Positions 53 through 29,236 of a DNA stretch of 41,756 nucleotides are shown here, piece by piece; positions within the stretch are counted from its first letter, which is position 1; each line of letters opens with the position of its first letter. The position numbers were made by a program, and so were the translations under genes. The stretch covers positions 1 to 41,756 of the forward strand of contig CAJXRC010000014.1 of assembly GCA_913058405.1 (NCBI GenBank), given 5' to 3'. Source of the DNA: an uncultured Colwellia sp. GTDB taxonomy: Bacteria; Pseudomonadota; Gammaproteobacteria; Enterobacterales; Alteromonadaceae. The notes under the pieces are model-generated. The model had not been told where the DNA came from. It worked only from the letters and a program-made list of their open reading frames with translations, and did not search any database.

Positions 53-634
53 ACAGAGTCTACCTTGTTGGATATGACAGATGCCGAATTACAGCAACAT
101 GTTCAAGGTTGTCGTGCAGTAGTCTCATGCCTTGGGCACAATTTAAATTTCAATGGCATGTTTGGTCATCCTCGCCGCTTGGTTACGGGGGCAGTCCAAC
201 GCTTATGTCGCGCTATTGAAGCAACAGCAGCAAACATAACAAGTACCCCTGTTAAATTTATTTTAATGAATACTACGGGTAATCAAAATACACAGGCGGG
301 AGAAAAAGTGTCGGTTGCACAATCTATGGTAGTTGGTTTGATCCGATTATTATTGCCACCACATGCCGACAACGAAGAGGCTGCGGGATATTTACAATCA
401 CGTTATGGCCGTCATCATAAGATGATTGAATGGGTGGCGGTTCGCCCTGACAGTTTGATAGATGAAGGTAGTGTCACACACTATCAAGCTTATGAATCTC
501 CTATTCGTAGTGCCATTTTTGATGCAGGTAAAACCAGTCGAATCAACGTTGCAAATTTTATGTCTCAGTTGGTCATTGATAGCGGTACATGGAATAAATG
601 GAAAAGCAAAATGCCTGTCCTTTATAATAATTAG
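53..634 (+). CDS. NAD(P)-binding SDR-like oxidoreductase, 5'-truncated
   Basis: The frame is open from the adapter junction to the TAG at 632-634, so the start and the N-terminal Gly-rich nucleotide-binding loop are missing. What remains (about 194 residues) begins just before a stretch reading LLDMTDAELQQHVQGCRAVV then SCLGHN, which resembles the middle of a Rossmann fold in atypical short-chain dehydrogenases and NmrA-like proteins. Later segments FILMNTTGNQN and WVAVRPDSLIDEG fit the same family (the RPDSLID stretch follows a conserved RP). Substrate is unknown. The truncation is due to the contig end. A TTG at 65 and ATG at 74 are internal codons and should not be taken as starts. The next gene, a VOC protein, follows after about 110 bp on the same strand. 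Confidence 0.75.
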   Translation, partial: TESTLLDMTDAELQQHVQGCRAVVSCLGHNLNFNGMFGHPRRLVTGAVQRLCRAIEATAANITSTPVKFILMNTTGNQNTQAGEKVSVAQSMVVGLIRLLLPPHADNEEAAGYLQSRYGRHHKMIEWVAVRPDSLIDEGSVTHYQAYESPIRSAIFDAGKTSRINVANFMSQLVIDSGTWNKWKSKMPVLYNN

Positions 635-747
635 CGATGAAACTTTAATGAATTATTGGCCTTTAGCTCTTTGCATAGAGACACTCAACATGGCCAATTA
701 TGTAAACATAAAACATAAAACATAAAACACTAAACAGGCAGAAATAA

Positions 748-1107
748 ATGATGAAAATGAATTACTTTGTTTTAGGCACCAATAATATGCAACTAGCGAT
801 TCAATTCTACGATAAATTATTTGAAGGCAGTAAAATGAATAAAATGCACTCAGAGGGGCGCATGACTTTATGGGCAGGGGATGATTTTATGTTTGCATTA
901 GCAGAGCCCTTTGATGGTGAAGAGGCGACTGCAGGCAATGGTACTATGGTTGGGTTCAATGTCGACTCTGCATCCGAGGTAGAGCGTTTATACAATAAAG
1001 CGTTGGTTATTGGTGGTGTTGATGAAGGATCACCTAAGATCCGCTCAGGGAAACTCTCTGCTTATGTAAGAGATTTAGATAAAAATAAACTCTGTTTTTT
1101 TGAGTGA
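748..1107 (+). CDS. VOC family protein (glyoxalase/bleomycin-resistance fold)
   Basis: A 119-residue single-module vicinal-oxygen-chelate protein. It starts with a typical beta-alpha unit (NYFVLGTNNMQLAIQFYDKL) and ends with VRDLDKNKLCFFE, the usual last strand carrying a metal-ligand Glu. The segment AGDDFMFALAEPFDGEEAT and the Gly-rich NGTMVGFNV match the small cytosolic VOC proteins often annotated as glyoxalase. No signal peptide is seen. The family includes lyases, dioxygenases and antibiotic-binding proteins, so substrate cannot be assigned. It lies downstream of the SDR gene on the same strand and converges with the LysR gene 40 bp further on. ATG codons at 748, 751 and 757 are all possible starts; the first is used here. 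Confidence 0.8.
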   Translation: MMKMNYFVLGTNNMQLAIQFYDKLFEGSKMNKMHSEGRMTLWAGDDFMFALAEPFDGEEATAGNGTMVGFNVDSASEVERLYNKALVIGGVDEGSPKIRSGKLSAYVRDLDKNKLCFFE

Positions 1108-1147
1108 AAGTATCTATGTATTATTATTGATGCCTAAATACAATAAG

Positions 1148-2026
1148 TTAATTATTCATTTTATGACGTAGTTCATGTGTTACCCAATCAACAAAATAGC
1201 GAATGCGCGTAGACATCAGCTTTGCATGTGAATAAACAACATTCACCTCGAGGGGAGGGGATTCAAATGCTTCTAATACGGTACACAGCTCGCCATTTTT
1301 AAGTTCTTGCTCTATTTGGTAAGAGAGAAATTGTCCTAATCCAAGGCTCTCTTTTACTACGCTCAGGGCTGAAGTAATGTTATTACAAATAAGCGGACCT
1401 TTTACGGGAATTGAGATCACTTTGTCATTTTCATAAAAATTCCAATTACTACCGTTACTTAAGCCGGTAAAAAGAATGCAAGGGACATCACTAATATTTT
1501 TGGGTTTGATAATTGGCGCTAAGCTATTTAACAACGCCGGTGTAGCACAAATAATTTTTCGTACACTACCTACTTTTCTAGCAATCATGTTTGAGTCGTT
1601 TAAAGGGCCAATTCGAATGGCAACATCGACTCCTTCTTCTATCAAATTGATGTTTTGATCAGATAATTCCAACTCGATGGTTACTTGTTTGTGTTCCTGT
1701 AAAAACTTTGTGATTAATGGCGCAATGTAAGCTGAACCGTACATTACAGATGCTGATACTTTCAATTTACCACTAGGGGCTTTTTGATTCGCACTTATTT
1801 CTAGCTCAGATTGTTCTATTTCGTATTGTATTTTTCTACATCGTTGTAGATAACGCTTACCTTCTTCTGTGATGGCTATCTTACGTGTTGTTCTATTGAT
1901 TAGTCTGATTTGTAGATGTTCTTCTAAAGCAGCCAAAGTACGTACAACCGTGGGCAATGAAGTATTTAATTCATTCGCTGCTTTGGTCAAGCTACCACTT
2001 TCTATGATCTGCATGAACACTTGCAT
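1148..2026 (-). CDS. LysR family transcriptional regulator (start uncertain)
   Basis: Typical LysR protein: N-terminal winged helix (MQIIESGSLTKAANELNTSL, then a recognition helix through RLINRTTRKIAITEEG) and a C-terminal periplasmic-binding-like effector domain (SASVMYGSAYIAPLITKFL, GVDVAIRIGPLNDSNMIARK). It is transcribed divergently from the DJ-1 gene at 2164, the usual geometry for LysR control of a neighbour. The ATG at 2026 gives 292 residues but omits the first few residues of the usual LysR start. In frame upstream the DNA reads I-I-D-K-L-I-A before this Met, and a GGAG Shine-Dalgarno (2053-2056) stands 5 nt from an ATT (2045-2047) and 8 nt from an ATC (2042-2044). The true start may therefore be a rare ATT or ATC codon. 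Confidence 0.9.
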   Translation of the reverse strand: MQVFMQIIESGSLTKAANELNTSLPTVVRTLAALEEHLQIRLINRTTRKIAITEEGKRYLQRCRKIQYEIEQSELEISANQKAPSGKLKVSASVMYGSAYIAPLITKFLQEHKQVTIELELSDQNINLIEEGVDVAIRIGPLNDSNMIARKVGSVRKIICATPALLNSLAPIIKPKNISDVPCILFTGLSNGSNWNFYENDKVISIPVKGPLICNNITSALSVVKESLGLGQFLSYQIEQELKNGELCTVLEAFESPPLEVNVVYSHAKLMSTRIRYFVDWVTHELRHKMNN

Positions 2027-2052
2027 AGCAATAAGTTTGTCGATAATTATTA

Positions 2053-2056
2053 CTCC
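2053..2056 (-). promoter_or_regulatory. Ribosome-binding site pointing to a non-ATG start of the LysR gene
   Basis: On the minus strand GGAG is followed by TAATA, then ATT and ATC. It lies 26 nt from the first in-frame ATG (2024-2026), too far to serve it, and that ATG has no Shine-Dalgarno of its own. Placement suits initiation at ATT or ATC, which would restore the usual LysR N-terminus (xDKLxAMxxF). Confidence 0.5.
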
Positions 2057-2163
2057 ATAAAATGAAACTATGTTATCCGTATTCGTATATTTATTCCACT
2101 AATTAAAGGGGTGATAATAACCGTTAAGGGGCATTATGATACATAACAGCAAGGTCTACTCAC

Positions 2164-2787
2164 ATGAAAAAAATTATGATGTTACTCGCAAACGGTGTCG
2201 AACCACTAGAGATGTCAGTATTCACAGATGTTATGGGCTGGGCAACAATACTCGGTGATGAAGCTATTGAGCTGACAGATGTTGCATTACATACGGAGAT
2301 AGAAACAACCTTTGGACTGACTATTAAACCATCGAAAATGCTGCAAGATATTGACTTAGCTGATTATGATGCAATTGCTATTCCTGGTGGTTTTGAACCT
2401 TCTGGGTTTTATGTTGATGCATTGAGCGAGCCTTTTATAAAGGCAATAAAATATTTTAATGAACAGGGTAAAACTATCGCGAGTGTCTGTGTTTCGTCTA
2501 TTGCTTTAGGCAATGCCGGTATATTAACAGGTAAAAAAGCGACAACTTACCATCAGGTTGGTGGTAAACGTAAACAACAGCTGGAAGAAAGTGGTGCAAT
2601 ATTTATTGATCGTCCTATAGTGCAAGACCAACATATTATTACTTCAACAGGTCCAGGAACCGCGATAGAAGTTGCTTTTTCATTATTAGAGCAAGTCACT
2701 TCAGCAGAAAATGTAGCCGAAATTCGTAGAAAAATGCGTGTGCCAACACCTTCTGATGATTGGTATCTATCTCCACAAGTAACATAG
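2164..2787 (+). CDS. DJ-1/PfpI family protein
   Basis: A 207-residue class I glutamine amidotransferase-like protein of the DJ-1/ThiJ/PfpI superfamily. Seen in the sequence: the N-terminal strand MKKIMMLLANGVEPLE with a conserved Glu at about residue 13, the loop AIPGGFEPSG, the nucleophile elbow ASVCVSSIALGNAGIL with Cys109, and GKKATTYH after it. This matches the Glu/Cys pair of DJ-1, whose relatives include Hsp31-type glyoxalases, protein deglycases (still debated) and chaperones. Which activity this one has cannot be read from the sequence. It is divergent from the LysR gene, a likely regulator, and is followed 66 bp later by a secreted VOC protein, possibly in one transcript. Two VOC proteins close by make a role in reactive carbonyl stress plausible. 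Confidence 0.85.
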   Translation: MKKIMMLLANGVEPLEMSVFTDVMGWATILGDEAIELTDVALHTEIETTFGLTIKPSKMLQDIDLADYDAIAIPGGFEPSGFYVDALSEPFIKAIKYFNEQGKTIASVCVSSIALGNAGILTGKKATTYHQVGGKRKQQLEESGAIFIDRPIVQDQHIITSTGPGTAIEVAFSLLEQVTSAENVAEIRRKMRVPTPSDDWYLSPQVT

Positions 2788-2853
2788 TGTTTATAGATAA
2801 AACAGGATTCTCGCTTCATTGTTCGGTTAGCAAAATATTGGAAAAAGAATGAC

Positions 2854-3342
2854 ATGATTAACAAAATACATTACCTCTTATTAACGATAGGAATACTTAT
2901 GAGTTCACTTACCTCTGCAGAAACAATAGATATTCAAAAACAAAAAGTTATGACCCAAGGCTTAAGCCATTTAGGGTTAACTGTGTCTAAACTGGAACAA
3001 ACAACAAGGTTTTTTACTGATACTTTAGGTTGGAGACTTGCCGGAGAAAAACCAGCATATCCAGCAAAATTTGTTACTGATGGCAATATGTTCATAACGC
3101 TTTGGCAGGTATCGAATGGTGATACAGTTGTTAACTTTGATAGAAAAAATAATGTGGGTTTACACCATTTAGCACTTTCTGTTGCCAGTAAAGAAAATTT
3201 AGTAATTTTACATGAACGTTTTAAAACTGTTGATGACTTAGTTATTGAATTCGGTCCTGAGATAAATGGACAGGGCCCAACTGTGCATATGATGATTAGA
3301 GAACCCAGTGGCAACCGCATTGAATTTACTTATAAACCTTAA
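2854..3342 (+). CDS. Secreted VOC family protein
   Basis: A 162-residue protein with an N-terminal signal peptide (positive MINK, hydrophobic core YLLLTIGILMSSL, cleavage likely after SLTSA), then one VOC module: LSHLGLTVSKLEQTTRFFTD, LGWRL, GNMFITLWQ, NNVGLHHLALSV, and the closing MMIREPSGNRIEFTYKP. The His in the first strand, the His in HHLAL and the Glu in RIEF are the expected metal-ligand positions of the glyoxalase I fold. Export to the periplasm is unusual for a glyoxalase I-like protein because glutathione hemithioacetals are cytosolic, so another substrate is likely. It probably belongs with the upstream DJ-1 gene. Confidence 0.8.
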   Translation: MINKIHYLLLTIGILMSSLTSAETIDIQKQKVMTQGLSHLGLTVSKLEQTTRFFTDTLGWRLAGEKPAYPAKFVTDGNMFITLWQVSNGDTVVNFDRKNNVGLHHLALSVASKENLVILHERFKTVDDLVIEFGPEINGQGPTVHMMIREPSGNRIEFTYKP

Positions 3343-8058: not shown

Positions 8059-9384
8059 ATGAGGATGCAACTAGGGCTCTCTTTTTTATCGTTGATAATA
8101 GCTTTATTACTGGCGATAAGTAATAAAGCACATGCCGAGTATAGTGCTATTTTGGAACAGGAATGGTCTATTGATAATAATGGTAACGGACAAAAGTTTG
8201 AGACCCTCTTTGAACCACAATACACGAGTAGTTTATCGGATAATGTGGAGATGACCTTTATTGGTAGAGTACGTTTTGATTCATTTGATCATTTAGGCAT
8301 GGCAAATAAAAATGCGGAAAACTACAGTGGAATAAATGGTCCATTATTCGCTAATAATCACACATCGTTTAGTATCAGAGAGTGGTATTTTGATACAGAA
8401 ATAGCCAATAGCTTTTGGCGAATAGGTAAACAACAAGTGGTTTGGGGGCAGGCTGATGGTTTAAAAGTGCTTGATGTGGTAAATCCGCAAAGCTACCGAG
8501 AGTTTATTCTTGATGACTTCGATGATTCTCGTATTCCATTATGGATGTTGAATGTTGAAATCCCCGTTGGTGATGATGATAGTCTACAGCTATTGTGGAT
8601 ACCTGATCTCAGTTATAACGAATATGCCATTGCGGGCAGTGTTTACCAAGCAACATCACCATTACTGGTACCAATATTACCAGAGGGTTTTGAACTTGCA
8701 GGTTTTCATCAGAGCAAGCCAGACTCGGTCATTAAAGACAGTGATGTTGGCTTGCGCTATTCAAAGTTTTATCAGGGCTGGGATTTAACCTTTAACACCC
8801 TTTATCACTTTCTTGATGCACCGGTTAATTACCAGGTTGTTGAGAAAAATAAGGTCTCTATTTATGCTCAATATGAACGGAGTTATCTTATTGGCGGAAC
8901 AGCTAGTAAGGCTTTTGGCGATTTTACCTTACGTACCGAGGTGGGTTATAGCAGTGACAGTTTTCATTTAGTAGATAACGATTCGGCTAATTATCTGACC
9001 AAACAAGGTATTCATCAATCTGCTGATGTTTCTTCTGTGATCGGTTTGGATTTTCAAGGGTTAACGGATATTTTTATCAGTGCACAGTGGTTTCAAAGTT
9101 ATTTACTAGACGACGGGGTGGGTCTAGTAAGACCTCAGCACGATCATAGCTTTTCATTAATCTATAACCAGAGTTTTGCCAATGAAGTATGGACATTTGA
9201 AGGCTTAATATTACATGGGCAAGATAAAGGTGATGGTTCAATACAGGCAAAGTTAAGTTACATGTTGGAAAGCAATATAAAGTTATGGTTGGGCACTGAT
9301 ATTTTTTATGGCAATAAGTCAGCTTTATTTGGTCAGTTTAAAGAAACAGACCGAGTTAATATTGGCATTGAATGGGGATTTTAA
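8059..9384 (+). CDS. DUF1302-like outer-membrane protein
   Basis: A 441-residue protein starting 1 bp after the RND stop, so it is co-translated with it. The signal peptide is MRMQLGLSFLSLIIALLLAI with cleavage likely after SNKAHA. The mature part is rich in alternating hydrophobic and polar strands with aromatic ends and finishes in NIGIEWGF, an outer-membrane barrel signature with terminal Phe. The segment FWRIGKQQVVWGQADGLKVL followed by DVVNPQSYREFILDD is characteristic of DUF1302 proteins. These often occur with DUF1329 or LolA-like proteins and RND transporters in marine bacteria. With the RND-LolA fusion it could form an envelope-spanning route for a hydrophobic compound; this is inference from gene order. 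Confidence 0.82.
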   Translation: MRMQLGLSFLSLIIALLLAISNKAHAEYSAILEQEWSIDNNGNGQKFETLFEPQYTSSLSDNVEMTFIGRVRFDSFDHLGMANKNAENYSGINGPLFANNHTSFSIREWYFDTEIANSFWRIGKQQVVWGQADGLKVLDVVNPQSYREFILDDFDDSRIPLWMLNVEIPVGDDDSLQLLWIPDLSYNEYAIAGSVYQATSPLLVPILPEGFELAGFHQSKPDSVIKDSDVGLRYSKFYQGWDLTFNTLYHFLDAPVNYQVVEKNKVSIYAQYERSYLIGGTASKAFGDFTLRTEVGYSSDSFHLVDNDSANYLTKQGIHQSADVSSVIGLDFQGLTDIFISAQWFQSYLLDDGVGLVRPQHDHSFSLIYNQSFANEVWTFEGLILHGQDKGDGSIQAKLSYMLESNIKLWLGTDIFYGNKSALFGQFKETDRVNIGIEWGF

Positions 9385-9546: not shown

Positions 9547-9608
9547 AAATCAAGGTATTACTAATAACGTATTACCCTAGTAATCCGTTATTAGTAATAC
9601 CTTGATTT
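9547..9608. terminator. Large hairpin, bidirectional terminator
   Basis: Perfect 23-bp inverted repeat (arms 9547-9569 and 9586-9608) with a 16-nt loop that holds a further 5-bp stem (9571-9575 with 9580-9584). It ends two convergent genes; the right arm overlaps the stop codon of the alpha/beta hydrolase gene (9607-9609). The arms start and end with A and T runs, which suits termination in both directions. A very small mobile repeat is an alternative. Confidence 0.7.
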
Positions 9609-10464
9609 AAGTTGTTAATTCTGGAAGTAATTGTGATTCCCATAAGGCGCTTTTAAATTTTTTCTTAAAAAAACCAAAATGGCCAATATTCTCAATATTT
9701 AATTGTTCAGCAGAAATCCTGATCATTTTAGGTGAAATATCACTAAAAAATCCATGTAAAGAATTAATGTTTTCAGCAGACATAAGTTGATCGTCAGTAA
9801 AGGAAATTGAGGTCATAGGTTTATTAAATAACTGGTAAGCCATTTGTACTGCTTGGTTTTCTATCCCTAATAAATAGTGAGGGTGTAAACACCATGCTCG
9901 CCATTGCTTCATTACACCAAAGGGTAAATTACCTACCATACCTAAACGTTTACCAGGAAAGTAACCTAATACTTTTAGTGACACTGGCGCAACAAAGTAC
10001 CAGAGAAACCATACTTTGTATTTTAATGCCGCAGCATTTTTACGCCAATAACCACTACCACTAGCAACAGTGATCACTTTTGAAACCAAGCCAATATTAG
10101 GGATCATTGCGGTAATTTGACCGCCTAAACTGTGGCCAATCCAATAAATATCTTTATCTTTAATCTCAATTGATACTTGCTCTAATATTTTTTTACAATC
10201 AAAAACCGCCCAATCAGTGATGGTTGTATCTGATTCTTTATAATGCACTTTATCAGCAGACCCCATAGAAGAATAATCAAAGGTAGTAACTAGGTAGCCA
10301 TAACTCGCTAACCATAAAGCGAAATCTTGGTAGAAAATTTTATCTACCCCTAAAGCCGGAGCGATCACTACCGCCGCTTTTACCTCTTCTTTTGGGCAAA
10401 AAAAGGTAGCATAAACAGGTTTGCCATTATCGGCTGTTAATTCTACATCTTTTATATCTATCAT
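9607..10464 (-). CDS. Alpha/beta hydrolase
   Basis: A 285-residue hydrolase of the COG4757-like group. The nucleophile elbow GHSLGG places the catalytic Ser at residue 112, and the early segment VVIAPALGVDKIFYQDFALW followed by LVTTFDYSSMGSA is typical of these proteins. The C-terminal GHFGFF carries the likely catalytic His. No signal peptide or membrane helix is obvious, so it is probably cytosolic. It is the last gene of the bufferin operon, 40 bp after the DoxX gene. Whether it takes part in bufferin maturation is unknown; it is not one of the core bufferin genes that I know. Confidence 0.82.
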   Translation of the reverse strand: MIDIKDVELTADNGKPVYATFFCPKEEVKAAVVIAPALGVDKIFYQDFALWLASYGYLVTTFDYSSMGSADKVHYKESDTTITDWAVFDCKKILEQVSIEIKDKDIYWIGHSLGGQITAMIPNIGLVSKVITVASGSGYWRKNAAALKYKVWFLWYFVAPVSLKVLGYFPGKRLGMVGNLPFGVMKQWRAWCLHPHYLLGIENQAVQMAYQLFNKPMTSISFTDDQLMSAENINSLHGFFSDISPKMIRISAEQLNIENIGHFGFFKKKFKSALWESQLLPELTT

Positions 10465-10504
10465 GATGATTTCTCTTGAAATTATGGTTATATTTCTTGT
10501 TTGG

Positions 10505-10972
10505 TTAGTTGTCAGTAACCTTGCTTAGCTTTATTTTCAATAAGTTATCTAATGATAATTTCCCTGCACCAAATAACACAACTTGCAATAGCAGTAAGCC
10601 CCATATAACGTGTGAATAAAGTGCTGCGGGAGCAATCTCAGTTAAGCTGACAACGGCAACGATATTTACAACAGTTAAACCTAAAGCACCAAATCGACTG
10701 GCTAAACCTAGTATCAATAAAACTGGCAGAATGAGTTCACCTGCTGTGCCCAAATACGCAGCTAGTTCAAAAGGAATAAACGGCACGCTGTATTCTTCTT
10801 CAAACAAAAATAAAGTGGAATCCCAATCTCTTAGCTTTGTTAGGCCAGAAGCAAAAAATACCCAAGCTACGTAAAATCTTGCACCGAGCAGTGCCAGGGG
10901 CTGTAAATAATTTAGCAGTTGACTCACTTGGGTGTAAGGTTGAATAAATCGTTGGGTAATTGTTGTCATCAT
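10505..10972 (-). CDS. bufD: DoxX family membrane protein (BufD/GigT-like)
   Basis: A 155-residue DoxX-type protein with four predicted membrane helices: PLALLGARFYVAWVFFASGL, LAAYLGTAGELILPVLLILG, GALGLTVVNIVAVVSL, and SHVIWGLLLLQVVLF. AAGGA precedes ATG 10972. DoxX proteins accompany DUF2282/DUF692/DUF2063 genes in bufferin operons and in the gold-induced gig operon of Cupriavidus, where the role of the DoxX member is not settled (membrane redox or metal sensing are ideas). Its position after bufC supports the name, with a 97-bp gap. The gene symbol rests on context, since DoxX sequences alone do not tell subgroups apart. Confidence 0.82.
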   Translation of the reverse strand: MMTTITQRFIQPYTQVSQLLNYLQPLALLGARFYVAWVFFASGLTKLRDWDSTLFLFEEEYSVPFIPFELAAYLGTAGELILPVLLILGLASRFGALGLTVVNIVAVVSLTEIAPAALYSHVIWGLLLLQVVLFGAGKLSLDNLLKIKLSKVTDN

Positions 10973-11069
10973 GTTGTTCCTTTACGGGTAAAATTTTATT
11001 TAAATTGTGGTTTTTAGATTTAATTAGGGTTTGTTTAAGCGTTAATTCGGACTTAAGTTACTTTGTAAA

Positions 11070-11912
11070 TTAAACTTTTAAATGATTAATCAGGTTTTGT
11101 TCCAGTGCTATACCAATCCATTGCGCGAAGTCAAAGTCATGTTCAAGCTCGTTATTATTGGTCATAATATCTAATGCTTTACCTATACTTACCCCTTGTT
11201 TTATTAGTGTTAACCAAGCGTATTCACTTGCCGATAATTCGCGTATTTCAGCGTTGTAATAAGGTCTATATATCAGTACTTTTTGCGAGAAATCACCTTG
11301 CACTAGTTTATCGAGTGATTGTTGAATAAATTTTTGGTTGAGCTCTTCCGCGGTATCGGAAACCACACGTTGTTGATGAGATAGCCAAAACTCAATCACA
11401 GGATAATTAGAATTCAAGCCAAATTGGCTGGTTGTTAGTTCTATATAAATTTCATCTATGTCGTGTGTTGCTAATAGTTGTAAGCTTGCTTGTTCTATTA
11501 CCGAATTTTTCGCACGCATACTCTGTTGTCTCAGTCGGTCTACTTGCGCAATATCAGCAACAAAAGGGTAGTCAGATAATTGTGCTAAATTAGTGAGTAG
11601 CGATGGAAAATCATCTCCCCAAAGTGCCCAGTCCCCATGTTTAGGTGGTGACGATATTAATAATTCACGACTAGCATAATTAAATAAACCTTCACCAATT
11701 AAGGTTAAAACAGTAGGAAAACTTATCGCGAGTGCTTGTTGGGCTGTTGCTAATAAATTGTTGCGATATATCGCCATTCCTCTGGGGTCGAATTCATCAA
11801 TTACTTCACTATCGGCAGAGGGGAATATGGCAGAAATGAGCGTTTGCTGTTGTTGTGCAACTTGTTCAAATGCTGCTTGGAGTGAGTGTTTTTTTGCGTC
11901 GTTGTTATTCAT
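11070..11912 (-). CDS. bufC: BufC-type partner protein (DUF2063)
   Basis: A 280-residue protein from the ATG at 11912, which overlaps the end of bufB by 8 bp and has GAGTGAG upstream; a start at 11930 is also open. The N-terminal half matches the DUF2063 putative DNA-binding family: LQAAFEQVAQQQQTLISAIF, then GMAIYRNNLLATAQQALAIS and FPTVLTLIGEGLFNYASREL, ending near GDWALWGDDFPSLL. In bufferin, methanobactin and HvfABC-type systems such proteins bind the MNIO enzyme and help present the precursor peptide, and they are no longer thought to be DNA-binding. The overlap with bufB points to a stoichiometric BufB-BufC complex in the cytosol. Confidence 0.88.
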   Translation of the reverse strand: MNNNDAKKHSLQAAFEQVAQQQQTLISAIFPSADSEVIDEFDPRGMAIYRNNLLATAQQALAISFPTVLTLIGEGLFNYASRELLISSPPKHGDWALWGDDFPSLLTNLAQLSDYPFVADIAQVDRLRQQSMRAKNSVIEQASLQLLATHDIDEIYIELTTSQFGLNSNYPVIEFWLSHQQRVVSDTAEELNQKFIQQSLDKLVQGDFSQKVLIYRPYYNAEIRELSASEYAWLTLIKQGVSIGKALDIMTNNNELEHDFDFAQWIGIALEQNLINHLKV

Positions 11913-12846
11913 GTATAAACTCACTCTCAAGTCCTGTCATAGCCGTTGTGACTTTTGATGAATGATTATCACCAAAAACCTGCTCTGCTATCATTCTCGC
12001 TTTGTCGGCTTCTGCGACTAATGTATGCCAGCTAGGCAGATTATTATCCCATTCAACTAAGGTAGGAATTTTTCCAAAACGCTCTAATGCGCTGCGATAT
12101 AGTTGCCATCCTTGGCTAGAAACAGCTTGGCTATGATCATCAATAATGAGCTCACCTTCTTTTACCTCGGTAAAACCTGCAAGATGAATTTCACCGACCA
12201 TAGTTGTCGGAATTTCAGCTAACCATTGTTGTGCATAGTCTAAAGGTTGTGCCGCATTAATGTTGTTGGCCGTCACAATGATATTGTTTAAATCAACTAA
12301 TAACTTGCAGCCAGTTAACTCTGCAAGACGGACTAAAAATTCGGTTTCAGGCATACATGCATGTGAGTATTGAATATAAGCTGATAGGTTTTCTACTAAC
12401 AGTGAACGACCTAACGATTGTTGAACACGGTCAATATTGTGCGCTAGCACCATCAAGGTTTGCTCGCTGTAAGCTAGCGGTAATAAATCTCCCGCATGCA
12501 CTTGTTGACCATTTAATTGGCTCCAACTAAAACAAGCATGGTCAGACATTAAAATAGGGTTGCAAGTACTTGCTAACTGTTTAAGCTTTTGTAAATACTG
12601 GCTAGGTACACCTTGTGCTGAGCCTAAGCCCATTGCGGTTGAATGCAAACTGATAGCATATTTTTCACTGGCTTGAGCTAAGACACTTTGTGTTGCGCCG
12701 CCTTGTGCAAAAAAATTTTCTGAATGTACTTCGACAAAATCGATATTTGATGGAGTTGTTAACGCCTCAGTAAAGTGTTGGTGTCTTAATCCAACACCAA
12801 TAAGTACGTCAGACTTCAATTTTTCATTTGGTCTTTGTAATGACAT
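11905..12846 (-). CDS. bufB: MNIO family bufferin maturase (DUF692)
   Basis: A 313-residue multinuclear non-heme iron oxidative enzyme (DUF692, TIM-barrel). Metal-ligand motifs are visible in order: GVGLRHQHF, FVEVHSENF, ISLHSTAMGLGS, LMSDHACFSW, LLVENLSAYIQYS, LLVDLNNI, GEIHLAGF, IDDHS and VEWDNN. These give the His, Asp and Glu set that binds two or three iron ions. Relatives (MbnB, TglH, HvfB, BufB) modify cysteines of a precursor to oxazolone/thioamide, thiooxazole or related heterocycles. AGGAG at 12856-12860 serves ATG 12846 and is kept clear of the repeat element just upstream. The presumed substrate is the BufA protein at 13103-13387. Confidence 0.92.
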   Translation of the reverse strand: MSLQRPNEKLKSDVLIGVGLRHQHFTEALTTPSNIDFVEVHSENFFAQGGATQSVLAQASEKYAISLHSTAMGLGSAQGVPSQYLQKLKQLASTCNPILMSDHACFSWSQLNGQQVHAGDLLPLAYSEQTLMVLAHNIDRVQQSLGRSLLVENLSAYIQYSHACMPETEFLVRLAELTGCKLLVDLNNIIVTANNINAAQPLDYAQQWLAEIPTTMVGEIHLAGFTEVKEGELIIDDHSQAVSSQGWQLYRSALERFGKIPTLVEWDNNLPSWHTLVAEADKARMIAEQVFGDNHSSKVTTAMTGLESEFIHE

Positions 12847-12862
12847 GAATTCAACTCCTAAA

Positions 12863-13019
12863 TACCAAGTTCAATAAATTATTGCTCACTTGTACTGGTT
12901 AAAATACGCCAGGCCAGCGTTGCTCTCAATTACAATAGCTAGCTATTGCTCAATCGAGCGTCTTGCCCTGATTTATTTTTCCTTTGTACAACAAGAGCAC
13001 AAACTTAATGTCATTGGCA
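12863..13019 (-). mobile_element. 157-bp MITE-like repeat, copy A
   Basis: This stretch is an inverted-orientation copy of 29079-29235: on aligning by eye, the two share most of their length, including AAATTATTG, CTTGT-CTGGTTAAAATAC, GCGTTGCTCTCAAT, CTCAATCGAGCG and ACAAACTTAATG. Both are 157 bp. Terminal repeats are degenerate here (TACCAAGTTC at the left, GTCATTGGCA at the right). No coding sequence is inside. It is inserted between bufA and bufB within one transcription unit. Confidence 0.8.
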
Positions 13020-13021
13020 TG

Positions 13022-13085
13022 ATACCAAGCTCAATAACGACTAGTTACTCCAAGCGGACCAATAAGTTTAATCCGTTGGGTATTA
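13022..13085. repeat. Short repeat remnant next to MITE copy A
   Basis: ATACCAAGCTCAATAA at the left resembles the left end of copy A (ATACCAAGTTCAATAA, 15 of 16 identical), and ATCCGTTGGGTAT at the right is a rough inverted match. It looks like a deleted second copy in tandem. With copy A it makes up nearly all of the 257-bp gap between bufA and bufB. Confidence 0.45.
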
Positions 13086-13102
13086 ATCGTAACTATCGAC
13101 TA

Positions 13103-13387
13103 TTACTTTGCTTTATCTTCAGCAAACTTTTTCTTGGCTGCTGCTTTTAAAAGGCCGCCAATATCTTCACAAGTGCCTTTAGCAACTAGTTTCCACTCAC
13201 CTGGATCTTTATCTACTGCTGATTGTCCTGCACATGAATGTGTTCCCGCTAAGTTAGCGCAATCATTTTGACCAGCCATCGCTACGCCATAACACTTCTC
13301 TTTACTCGCCGCTTGAGCTGGCGCAGTAACTGCAGTAGAAAGGGCAACAACTAGTGCTGCACTAGCAAGTAATTTTTTGTTATTCAT
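13103..13387 (-). CDS. bufA: BufA1-type periplasmic bufferin precursor (DUF2282)
   Basis: A 94-residue precursor of a copper-binding ribosomal peptide. ATG 13387 is chosen because GAGG lies upstream and a clean signal peptide follows (MNNKKLLASAALVVALSTAV, cleavage likely after APAQA); a start at 13420 would add 11 non-signal residues. The mature part of about 68 residues carries four cysteines at 32, 43, 52 and 73 in the family pattern EKCYGVAMAGQNDC, THSCAGQS, GEWKLVAKGTC. In studied bufferins the central cysteines become thiooxazoles through BufB-BufC and the product binds copper in the periplasm. The C-terminal tail is Lys/Ala-rich. Neighbours bufB, bufC and bufD on the same strand support the call. 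Confidence 0.93.
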   Translation of the reverse strand: MNNKKLLASAALVVALSTAVTAPAQAASKEKCYGVAMAGQNDCANLAGTHSCAGQSAVDKDPGEWKLVAKGTCEDIGGLLKAAAKKKFAEDKAK

Positions 13388-13397
13388 AATAAAGCCT

Positions 13398-13778
13398 CTA
13401 TTTAATTGTATTGTGGTCAAGCTGCTTGCTTAACCAACGGTTTATTTCTTCAGTGCTTACGCCACCTATTAAGCGAGATTTTGAACCAGAGCGGCCTAAT
13501 AACACTAATGATGGAACGCCTGTCACTTCAAGTTGTTTTGCTAACTGTGTTTGCTCATCAACATCAATCTTGATCACGTTTAGCTGATCTACATAATGTT
13601 TTGATACATCGACCATTATTGGTGCCATGCTTTTACATGGTGAGCACCATGAAGTACTAAAATAAATAAGTACCCATGATTTTTCATGCTCGCACCAGTT
13701 AAGACCTTGCAGGTTGAGTTCTTCTTTCATTGGCAAAGGCTTAACTCGGGCAAACTTTGTAAGAAAATTATTCAGCAT
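13398..13778 (-). CDS. Thioredoxin-fold protein
   Basis: A 126-residue thioredoxin-like protein with the active site FSTSWCSPCKSMAPIM (WC-S-P-C instead of WCGPC), the cis-Pro loop VTGVPSLVLLG and the following IGGVSTEEINRWL. No signal peptide is seen, so it should act in the cytosol. It overlaps the YHS gene by 11 bp (ATG inside GATGCTGAATAA) and ends 10 bp before the bufA start, so the three are surely co-transcribed. A role in keeping BufA cysteines reduced before modification is a reasonable guess, not shown by sequence. Confidence 0.9.
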   Translation of the reverse strand: MLNNFLTKFARVKPLPMKEELNLQGLNWCEHEKSWVLIYFSTSWCSPCKSMAPIMVDVSKHYVDQLNVIKIDVDEQTQLAKQLEVTGVPSLVLLGRSGSKSRLIGGVSTEEINRWLSKQLDHNTIK

Positions 13779-14247
13779 CTAATTGCGCAATAGATACACC
13801 TTGAATACCAGACCAAGTTCTATCTGCAGTAGCGATGTAACCAGGGATATCAGTTGCCCATTTTTTCTGAACTGCTTTGTTCAAGTTCAAATACAATTTA
13901 CCATCAACAATTTTCCATGCTGTTGGGTCAGTATCTAATTTTTTGTTTAACGCTACGCCCATCGCACAAAATCCGCCAAATTGTGGTGCAAACTGTCCAG
14001 GGTTTTGTTTGAATTGATCACGATTTGCTTCACTGCTAAATTGATAAATAGCGCTCTTATAAGTCGCGGTGTATTTTTGATTACCTTTAGTTGCTTTACT
14101 GTCGGTGAAATATGAAACAGCATCATAACCATGAATAGCAAGGTCATTTTCATTGCTATTAACATCAATTTGAGCAGCAAAGCTTACACTGCTGATTGCG
14201 AGAGTTGCGACGATTGCGACAGATTTAAGTAGAGTAGAGATATTCAT
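13768..14247 (-). CDS. Secreted YHS domain protein
   Basis: A 159-residue protein, first in the bufferin operon. ATG 14247 has AAGGAG upstream at a good distance and opens a signal peptide (MNISTLLKSVAIVATLAISS, cleavage likely after VSFA); the longer frame to 14355 lacks these. The YHS domain spans about residues 30-130: LAIHGYDAVSYF, YTATYKSAIYQFSSEANRDQF, and FGGFCAMGVA with its single Cys, then a closing DPTAWKIVDGKLYLNLN. Many YHS proteins bind or accompany heavy metals (copper and silver transporters carry YHS-type domains). With BufA downstream it may be a second periplasmic metal-handling factor. Translationally coupled to the thioredoxin gene. Confidence 0.88.
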   Translation of the reverse strand: MNISTLLKSVAIVATLAISSVSFAAQIDVNSNENDLAIHGYDAVSYFTDSKATKGNQKYTATYKSAIYQFSSEANRDQFKQNPGQFAPQFGGFCAMGVALNKKLDTDPTAWKIVDGKLYLNLNKAVQKKWATDIPGYIATADRTWSGIQGVSIAQLDAE

Positions 14248-14322: not shown

Positions 14323-14449
14323 TTTGTGTATAGACATAAGTGGTGTAATATTCACAGCGCTTCGTCATGTGGTTACTTTAACAAGCTGCTTGTGAGCGAA
14401 TGCCGCTATGAGTCTCTAACTTGAAACCAATCGTCTAAAAGAGTTATTT

Positions 14450-15277
14450 ATGGATCAATTAAGTCAAATTTTAGAAAATCTTTCTTTTAATGCTGATGTT
14501 TTTTTCAGCGGTAACTTGTGTGGTATTCAAAGTTTAGGCGGGGCTGATAGTAAAAAAGGACATCTGCATTTATTAAAATCGGGCATATTGACCATTGTTT
14601 GTGAAGAAGGGCATAAAGTTACCCTAGATAAGCCGTCGGTTATTTTTATGCCGGGCCCGAGTAAACATCAAGTTATTGCCAGTGAGTCGGATGATGCCGA
14701 GTTAGTTTGTGCTGATGTCGATTTTCATTCGGGCAGTGGCGCTGCCTTGGTAAATGCATTACCAAAATTTATTTGTTTGAACATTGATCAGCATGATCCT
14801 GTTGGAAGAACTGCACACTGGTTGTTTGAAGAAGCGTTTAACAAACAAGCTGGTCAACAGATGATCGTGAATAAGCTCGGTGATATTTTCTTGATACAAA
14901 TACTGCGACATGTCATTAAGGAAGGCATCGTTATTCAGGGCATGTTAGCGGGTATGGCGCATCCTCAATTATCAACATTAATGTCAGCATTGCATAAACG
15001 GCCGCAAGAACAGTGGACCGTTGAGTTAATGGCTGAAACAGCCTTAATGTCGCGAGCTAAGTTTGCCGCTTTATTTAAAGATACGATAGGGCAAGCCCCC
15101 AGTGACTATTTAACAGACCTACGTATTGCTATCGCGCAAGGTTTGTTGAAAAAAGATAAACCTGTTAGCTTTGTTGCTAATGAGGTGGGTTATGAACATG
15201 GCTCTGCGTTGGCTCGAGTCTTTAGGAAAAAAACGGGATTATCACCAAAAGAATGGTTAATGAAATTTAGGAAGTAA
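14450..15277 (+). CDS. AraC family regulator (cupin plus AraC HTH)
   Basis: A 275-residue regulator of the group with an N-terminal cupin domain (KGHLHLLKSGILTIVCEEGH, then LDKPSVIFMPGPSKH) and a C-terminal pair of helix-turn-helix motifs (ELMAETALMSRAKFAALFKD, then VSFVANEVGYEHGSALARVF, then KKTGLSPKEWL). ATG 14450 lies 11 nt after AAAGAG. It is divergent from the bufferin operon and shares a 202-bp gap holding direct repeats, so it is the likely regulator. Studied bufferin operons are under ECF sigma factors, so an AraC regulator would be a different control. The effector bound by the cupin is unknown; a His and a Cys in this domain could take a metal but this is speculation. Confidence 0.88.
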   Translation: MDQLSQILENLSFNADVFFSGNLCGIQSLGGADSKKGHLHLLKSGILTIVCEEGHKVTLDKPSVIFMPGPSKHQVIASESDDAELVCADVDFHSGSGAALVNALPKFICLNIDQHDPVGRTAHWLFEEAFNKQAGQQMIVNKLGDIFLIQILRHVIKEGIVIQGMLAGMAHPQLSTLMSALHKRPQEQWTVELMAETALMSRAKFAALFKDTIGQAPSDYLTDLRIAIAQGLLKKDKPVSFVANEVGYEHGSALARVFRKKTGLSPKEWLMKFRK

Positions 15278-28799: not shown

Positions 28800-29077
28800 A
28801 ATAAAGAAGTGATGAGTAATATGTTTATATATCACTCATTTAACTATAGCGTTAACAAACCACTTCAACATTATTTATTTAGTTTTTTGTTCTGTTCTCA
28901 GGGGATTTTTCAGTCTCAGTGTACTCAATTGTCACTTGTATTTATTGTTACACCAGCATGGAATAAATAATAATATCGCTTTGAACGAAATAATCACTTT
29001 AATCCAATATTCATGGGGATCCGCAAGAGTGTAGTGATTACATTAACAACTCATGTGGCTTGGGTATATAGGAAATA
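28800..29077. other. Non-coding AT-rich region
   Basis: The gap between the BamA-like gene and the repeat copy B holds no convincing gene. The promoter of the minus-strand gene should lie here. A stretch CTTGGGTATA at 29059-29068 is the complement of the end sequence of the TATACCCAAG family and could be a half-copy. Confidence 0.4.
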
Positions 29078-29236
29078 ATACCAATTCCATTAAGTTTGTG
29101 ATCTTGTTGTGCGTAGGAAAAATATTTCAAGGCAAGGCGCTCGATTGAGTAATAGCTGGCTATTGGGATTGAGAGCAACGCAGTCGTGAAGTATTTTAAC
29201 CAGCACAAGTGGGCAATAATTTAATGGAATTGGTAT
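29078..29236 (+). mobile_element. 157-bp MITE-like repeat, copy B
   Basis: The core 29079-29235 is 157 bp with perfect 16-bp terminal inverted repeats counted with one more base on each side (ATACCAATTCCATTAA at 29078-29093, complement at 29221-29236). It is a reverse-complement relative of 12863-13019, the copy inside the bufferin operon. No open reading frame. Intact termini suggest that this copy is the younger one. Confidence 0.8.

Follow-up and report, generated by a model that had tools for sequence, protein, structure and literature searches.

The window analysed here is a stretch of 41,756 nucleotides (nt) from an uncultured Colwellia sp. (contig CAJXRC010000014.1), and its minus strand carries a run of genes that encodes, in order, a YHS protein, a thioredoxin, the bufferin-type precursor BufA, the MNIO enzyme BufB, its partner BufC, a DoxX-family membrane protein and an alpha/beta hydrolase. 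The YHS gene is a conserved part of this bufferin-type operon in one clade of MNIO enzymes, and it outlives the bufferin enzymes at loci where these have decayed.

An earlier reading of the sequence alone (the original prediction) had described the run as a bufferin-type operon with YHS, thioredoxin and hydrolase genes added to the known core, and the core was read correctly. BufA (94 aa; 13103..13387, minus strand, as are all genes of the run) is a DUF2282 protein (PF10048, 89.8 bits) with four cysteines, all invariant in 19 aligned rows, and, judged by eye only, a signal peptide; the sole NCBIfam bufferin precursor model that it matched scored 30.3 bits against a cut-off of 60, and a sequence search found no relatives of solved structure up to E 0.1. 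BufC (280 aa; 11070..11912; DUF2063, PF09836, 49.7 bits, cut-off 27.2) and the DoxX protein (155 aa; 10505..10972; PF07681, 63.4 bits) both score above their Pfam cut-offs, the latter with 60.7 bits against the 80 set for the NCBIfam HvfX model. BufB (313 aa; 11905..12846) scores well above the cut-off of PF05114 (286.6 bits) and just short of that of the NCBIfam BufB model (NF050167, 307.4 bits, cut-off 310). The full set of metal ligands predicted for it agrees with an alignment of 12 MNIOs, in which columns of His, Asp, Glu and Asn, residues of the kind that bind iron in these enzymes, are invariant and include the putative ligands. The genome holds two further MNIO loci, one on contig 30 (DUF2282-type) and one on contig 90 (with a Cys-rich precursor).

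As also predicted, a secreted YHS protein and a cytosolic thioredoxin precede the core: the YHS protein (159 aa; 13768..14247) has a signal-peptide-like N-terminus, and the thioredoxin (126 aa, with the motif CSPC; 13398..13778; PF00085, 71.8 bits) has no signal peptide. The proposed translational coupling of the two is less certain; the genes overlap by 11 nt as called, but eight other aligned thioredoxins begin 11 to 16 residues later, so that Met17 may be the true start, which would leave a short gap. The original prediction had not described the AraC-family gene with a Cupin_6 domain (14450..15277, plus strand; PF12852 and PF12833), which diverges from the YHS gene, start to start 202 nt away, nor the operator-like direct repeat between them, with two RGAC half-sites 21 bp apart (14407..14439, minus strand).

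The linkage of YHS to bufferin loci is well supported. We searched 98 genomes of the host's family with BufB and with YHS and paired the resulting places, dropping three short fragments or second pieces from each list (101 of 104 MNIO rows and 77 of 80 YHS rows were kept). A YHS gene lay on the same strand within 3 kb at 19 of the 23 MNIO places of at least 44% identity (the window counted) versus none of the 78 places of lower identity (Fisher p 5e-17, for matches that are related to one another). One dropped fragment (G019 contig 6; 43% identity across 37 residues), which represents the remains of BufB at locus L059, adjoins a YHS gene; with the fragments restored, the counts become 19 of 24 and 1 of 80. 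Among 20 family loci chosen by BufB similarity, YHS is intact in 16, degenerate in one (L051) and absent from three, versus none in 12 control loci whose MNIO is at most 43% identical. A DoxX match is present in 16 of the 20 (in one case a fragment) and a close AraC homologue in 14, of which 11 have it directly divergent from YHS; an AraC match of 52 bits in L052 was left out. Thioredoxin is found in eight of the 20, and the controls gave none save for one match of 29 bits, in L160, a locus that also has an AraC match of 149 bits. The original prediction had staked itself on YHS and thioredoxin being conserved together with bufABC, which held for YHS and in part for thioredoxin.

In a quick maximum likelihood tree of BufB and other MNIO sequences (n=63, no bootstrap), one clade, with an SH-like approximate likelihood ratio test (SH-aLRT) support of 99, contains 50 rows, of which 46 have YHS. 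GTDB rows picked by their YHS make up 28 of those 46; among the 22 other clade rows, 18 have YHS. Two long-branch rows outside the clade, from an Erythrobacter metagenome-assembled genome (MAG; L101) and a beta-proteobacterial MAG (L123), also have it. A clade-specific cysteine in the SDHACF loop of BufB was considered as a sign of partnership with YHS and rejected, because the insertion marks the whole clade, rows without YHS included, and the cysteine is not kept in all.

YHS proteins of this kind also occur without bufferin genes. A GTDB scan with 14 of them gave at least 561 relatives, the best 80 of which were retained as loci; as these were picked by YHS similarity, fractions among them are no estimate of frequency. 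Near YHS we found BufA in 31, BufB in 30 and thioredoxin in 18; in 32 an AraC gene lies no more than 2.5 kb away, 12 of these being AraC-YHS pairs that lack buf genes. Of the 80 loci, 49 showed no buf gene, and 37 had none of the four partners nearby, absences that are not firm because some contigs are short. Where BufA is present it lies downstream of YHS on the same strand in every case (31 of 31), with or without a thioredoxin gene between them. Some redundancy remains (L070 and L071 are near copies, and the BufB of L082 is identical to that of family locus L035), and BufA accompanies YHS in hosts such as Motiliproteus, Moritella, Psychromonas, Marinobacter, Glaciecola and Cognaticolwellia. 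A plasmid search with YHS returned 82 records, every one below 60% identity; two regions were opened, one of them unannotated. On a Pseudoalteromonas plasmid (L161:4001-5714), YHS adjoins an AraC gene and a glutaredoxin gene, with no annotated bufferin gene.

The window's own genome carries a second cassette on contig 90 (L057, G000:C90:1-9000, at 625-3133) in which the AraC, YHS, thioredoxin and DoxX genes are intact and bufABC is gone; 231 bases are left between thioredoxin and DoxX, and a stretch there resembles, by eye, a BufA leader. Two other loci show different states of loss. L058 (5061-7807) reads AraC-YHS-thioredoxin-BufA-DoxX, with no BufB/MNIO or BufC/DUF2063 match; its BufA keeps the four cysteines and may therefore be modified in trans or stay unmodified. 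In L059, BufB and BufC are present as pieces only. The YHS gene can thus persist after the bufferin enzymes are lost, evidence against a function confined to bufferin maturation.

What, then, is the YHS protein? It is a clear member of NF041384 (158.2 bits, curated cut-off 70), a family that a review lists among selenoproteins with a GxU motif (PMC13188914). The window protein has one cysteine in the whole chain, Cys94, in the sequence GGFC; this residue is invariant in 65 aligned YHS sequences, where the conserved motif is GG[YF]C, and 74 of the 80 GTDB proteins have exactly one cysteine past residue 25. The motif fits the place of GxU, with cysteine where some relatives carry selenocysteine. 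All 80 GTDB proteins have cysteine there, a weak test for selenocysteine-containing YHS next to bufferin because open reading frames were called as ending at every TGA and, of the two patterns used for the search, one demanded cysteine. Resemblance to the classical YHS domain is slight (PF04945, 30.0 bits, below the cut-off of 30.3), and a classical metal-binding domain is ruled out: its site is described as one Asp plus three Cys (PMC4626032), which cannot form in a protein with a single cysteine. The AlphaFold model (best of five) is confident beyond the leader, with a mean predicted local distance difference test score (pLDDT) of 89, and no solved structure reached E 0.001 in a Foldseek search, whose only matches were weak ones, to ciliary proteins and to toluene/o-xylene monooxygenase in its YHS part. 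A sequence profile gave two ciliary chains at whole-chain E 5e-8 and 1.5e-7, from repeated weak stretches none of which passes alone, and one designed protein at E 0.057. The protein is probably a co-regulated periplasmic thiol protein rather than a maturation enzyme, and we infer a redox role for Cys94.

The divergent regulator resembles RclR of E. coli, which is reported to sense hypochlorous acid (HOCl), to be activated via oxidation of Cys21 and Cys89, and to have as a target RclA, a Cu(II) reductase (PMC7464077). All 54 related regulators that were compared, 17 of them from loci without the full bufferin core, have the residues C24, H40, H73 and C87 (weaker AraC matches were left out); H40, H73 and C87 are also present in RclR, whose Cys89 aligns with C87 in both alignments that we made. 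The direct repeat ahead of YHS matches 22 of 31 consensus positions, with none of 200 shuffles as good, and the site is shared by part of the loci: of the 42 intergenic regions scored, 24 match the consensus better than any of 200 shuffles (window included; two additional regions were too short for scoring), among them 3 of the 14 AraC-YHS regions without buf genes. Loci without bufABC that have the site ahead of YHS include L092, L093, L097 and the contig 90 cassette. A strict pattern, drawn from the two sites of the window's own genome, has exact matches in that genome only at those two (window and C90:2263), both before YHS genes, with two more one-mismatch matches and one match of its backward control. 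Generic promoter and terminator scans gave matches no commoner than in shuffled sequence.

Thioredoxin is an optional member of the operon. It is present in 18 of the 31 GTDB loci with BufA, lying between YHS and BufA in 15 and elsewhere in three; in two Marinobacter loci (L087, L095) a thioredoxin gene follows DoxX instead. On the MNIO tree its label changes nine times among YHS-bearing rows, and it has therefore often been gained or lost. More distant thioredoxin-family genes follow BufC at L047:7544-8053 (ResA-like) and L049:7485-8018, a second sign of thiol chemistry at these loci.

Taken together, we propose, with confidence that is evenly balanced, that a bufferin-1-type copper RiPP (ribosomally synthesized and post-translationally modified peptide) operon was built into an older thiol/oxidant stress unit, in which a secreted YHS protein is teamed with an AraC regulator of the RclR-like kind. 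The regulator would sense oxidants and/or copper through C24, C87 and the two histidines, bind the 21-bp direct repeat and activate the YHS-bufferin operon; on the model of bufferins already characterised, BufB and BufC together would convert the two central cysteines of BufA to thiooxazoles, and BufA would be exported to buffer copper. YHS would work alongside BufA as a periplasmic single-cysteine redox protein, neither bufferin maturase nor classical YHS metal carrier, and the optional thioredoxin could supply cytosolic reducing power, for example by holding the BufA cysteines reduced before modification. This suggests that marine relatives may run copper buffering within a response to thiol or oxidant stress. 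A stronger version, which we consider quite improbable, makes bufferin production one arm of an oxidant (HOCl-like) response under an RclR-like sensor in this clade of marine Gammaproteobacteria, with YHS as a dedicated periplasmic thiol/selenol reductase that would protect or repair copper-bufferin or periplasmic thiols from copper plus oxidant damage.

Several observations weigh against the proposal of a bufferin operon built into a stress unit. In a class sample of 185 genomes, YHS stands beside BufB in 2 of the 59 that have a BufB match at E 1e-50 or better, namely the window's own genome and one family member (the pairing was done by eye, and some BufB matches lie at contig ends, e.g., G121); the arrangement is therefore a trait of a mainly marine clade, rare class-wide, and not of bufferin clusters in general. 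Within the clade itself 4 of the 50 rows have no YHS in the stretch covered, which in one of them (L024) extends less than 300 bases upstream of bufA. The regulator scores 108.9 bits against the RclR equivalog model NF040475, far under its cut-off of 400, and Cys21 of RclR, aligned with C24 in one alignment, falls three columns off in that of the 54 regulators; the stress that the regulator senses is itself inferred. As for the site, its consensus was read by eye from the same araC-YHS regions, and its patterns were derived from the same loci; 18 of the 42 scored regions lack a clear site, including 11 of the 14 AraC-YHS-only regions. Across the family's 98 genomes a looser pattern gave 29 matches, versus 40 for its backward control, so that the pattern itself is not enriched and only its location is telling: 15 of the 29 lie no more than ~210 bp upstream of a YHS gene. 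A third match in the window's own genome lies away from YHS.

The original prediction had gone further in suggesting that the extra genes take part in bufferin maturation or metal transfer, with thioredoxin, in the fullest form of the idea, reducing BufA for BufB and YHS passing copper to or from the exported bufferin. The tight linkage, the fixed YHS-(thioredoxin)-BufA order, the two Marinobacter loci with thioredoxin after DoxX and the YHS genes that adjoin buf genes outside the clade (Erythrobacter and the beta-proteobacterial MAG) would all fit such a role. Against it stand the single cysteine and missing metal site of YHS, the 49 GTDB loci at which no buf gene was found, the persistence of intact YHS and thioredoxin where bufABC is gone, the four clade rows without YHS (with the same proviso for L024), and the signal peptide, which YHS has and thioredoxin lacks; for YHS such a role is not supported, and we consider the idea unlikely. 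The opposite view, that an AraC-YHS promoter captured the bufferin genes downstream of it and that regulation is all they share, with no functional connection between the products, draws on the 12 AraC-YHS pairs without buf genes and on the sites before YHS at bufABC-less loci, and still seems rather doubtful to us: the linkage persists across several orders of marine Gammaproteobacteria, and its recurrence with divergent MNIOs in L101 and L123 (both long branches) hints at more than one origin.

The nature of the signal can also be read differently, as copper instead of oxidant, in which case C24, H40, H73 and C87 would form a cupin-domain metal site and the operon would be a plain copper response. 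The invariance of all four residues in the 54 regulators would suit a metal site, and better growth under copper stress has been reported for bufferins (PMC12452194), but H40, H73 and C87 need not mean copper, since they are also kept in E. coli RclR, a reported HOCl sensor (PMC7464077), and a sensor of copper alone strikes us as improbable. The reading of YHS as a co-regulated thiol protein fits best overall; both the chemistry and the stress signal that it proposes are hypothetical.

Other features of the window bear less on these questions. The alpha/beta hydrolase (285 aa; 9607..10464; PF12146, 31.2 bits) is, as predicted, the last gene of the run, and may share the operon transcript, since a terminator-like hairpin that the original prediction had not described sits at its stop (9547..9608; 29-nt arms, 97% complementary; -34.8 kcal/mol, z -9.0). 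As a conserved operon part it is ruled out, since blastp with a threshold of 1e-3 gave no match to it in any of 112 loci (20 from the family, 12 additional ones and 80 from GTDB). Also beyond the original prediction, a 162-bp interspersed repeat (12862..13023) lies between bufA and bufB, with eight further near full-length copies in the genome at 78-87% identity, one of them in the window (29075-29236); it stretches the space between bufA and bufB to 256 nt, compared with 42 nt or less in 25 of 30 GTDB loci. Elsewhere, a conserved protein of 327-345 aa adjoins DoxX in four loci (L035:3130-4125, L036:2883-3920, L047:8960-9952 and L049:8260-9243; 46-50% identical to that of L035), and those of L035, L036 and L047, which were scanned, matched no Pfam or NCBIfam family. 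Beside this gene and DoxX, L035 encodes a sulfatase-modifying-factor-like protein (2294-3169); bufferin fusions with a sulfatase-modifying-factor domain have been reported (PMC12452194). In L048, which has no AraC match, a sigma-70-like gene (8179-8691) lies downstream of YHS-thioredoxin-BufA-BufB-BufC.

Our literature search, which took in few subscription papers, found no published description of the YHS-bufferin arrangement, and a term count found neither YHS nor thioredoxin in the main texts of PMC12452194, PMC13097082 and PMC12538549. The window locus shares with the bufferin-1 cluster (DUF2282-MNIO-DUF2063-DoxX), as PMC12452194 describes it, the same four core genes and a precursor with a signal peptide and four cysteines, and differs from it in having YHS and thioredoxin in front and an AraC regulator; Buf1 clusters are reported there to have sigma-factor and NrsF genes, with additional conserved genes in extremely low proportions. 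Like the E. coli rclR-rclABC locus, it has a similarly built AraC-type regulator that diverges from an operon whose products include a periplasmic and an inner-membrane protein, whereas no bufferin, YHS, thioredoxin or DoxX gene is annotated there. Its YHS protein shares a weak PF04945 match with the metal-binding YHS/TRASH domains and lacks the three cysteine ligands reported for them (PMC4626032); it is a clear member of NF041384, with cysteine at the listed GxU place, and stands in an operon with the bufferin core, unlike the 49 of 80 relatives that showed no buf gene. If our reading is true, it would give this YHS (seleno)protein family, for which the literature passages at hand state no function, a genetic context, and would provide a concrete link of copper RiPPs to thiol or oxidant stress. 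Bufferin clusters have been described as a four-gene core, with sigma-factor and NrsF genes in Buf1 (PMC12452194); in one clade this core is joined by a secreted YHS protein and by a switch of another kind, whose DNA site can be recognised.

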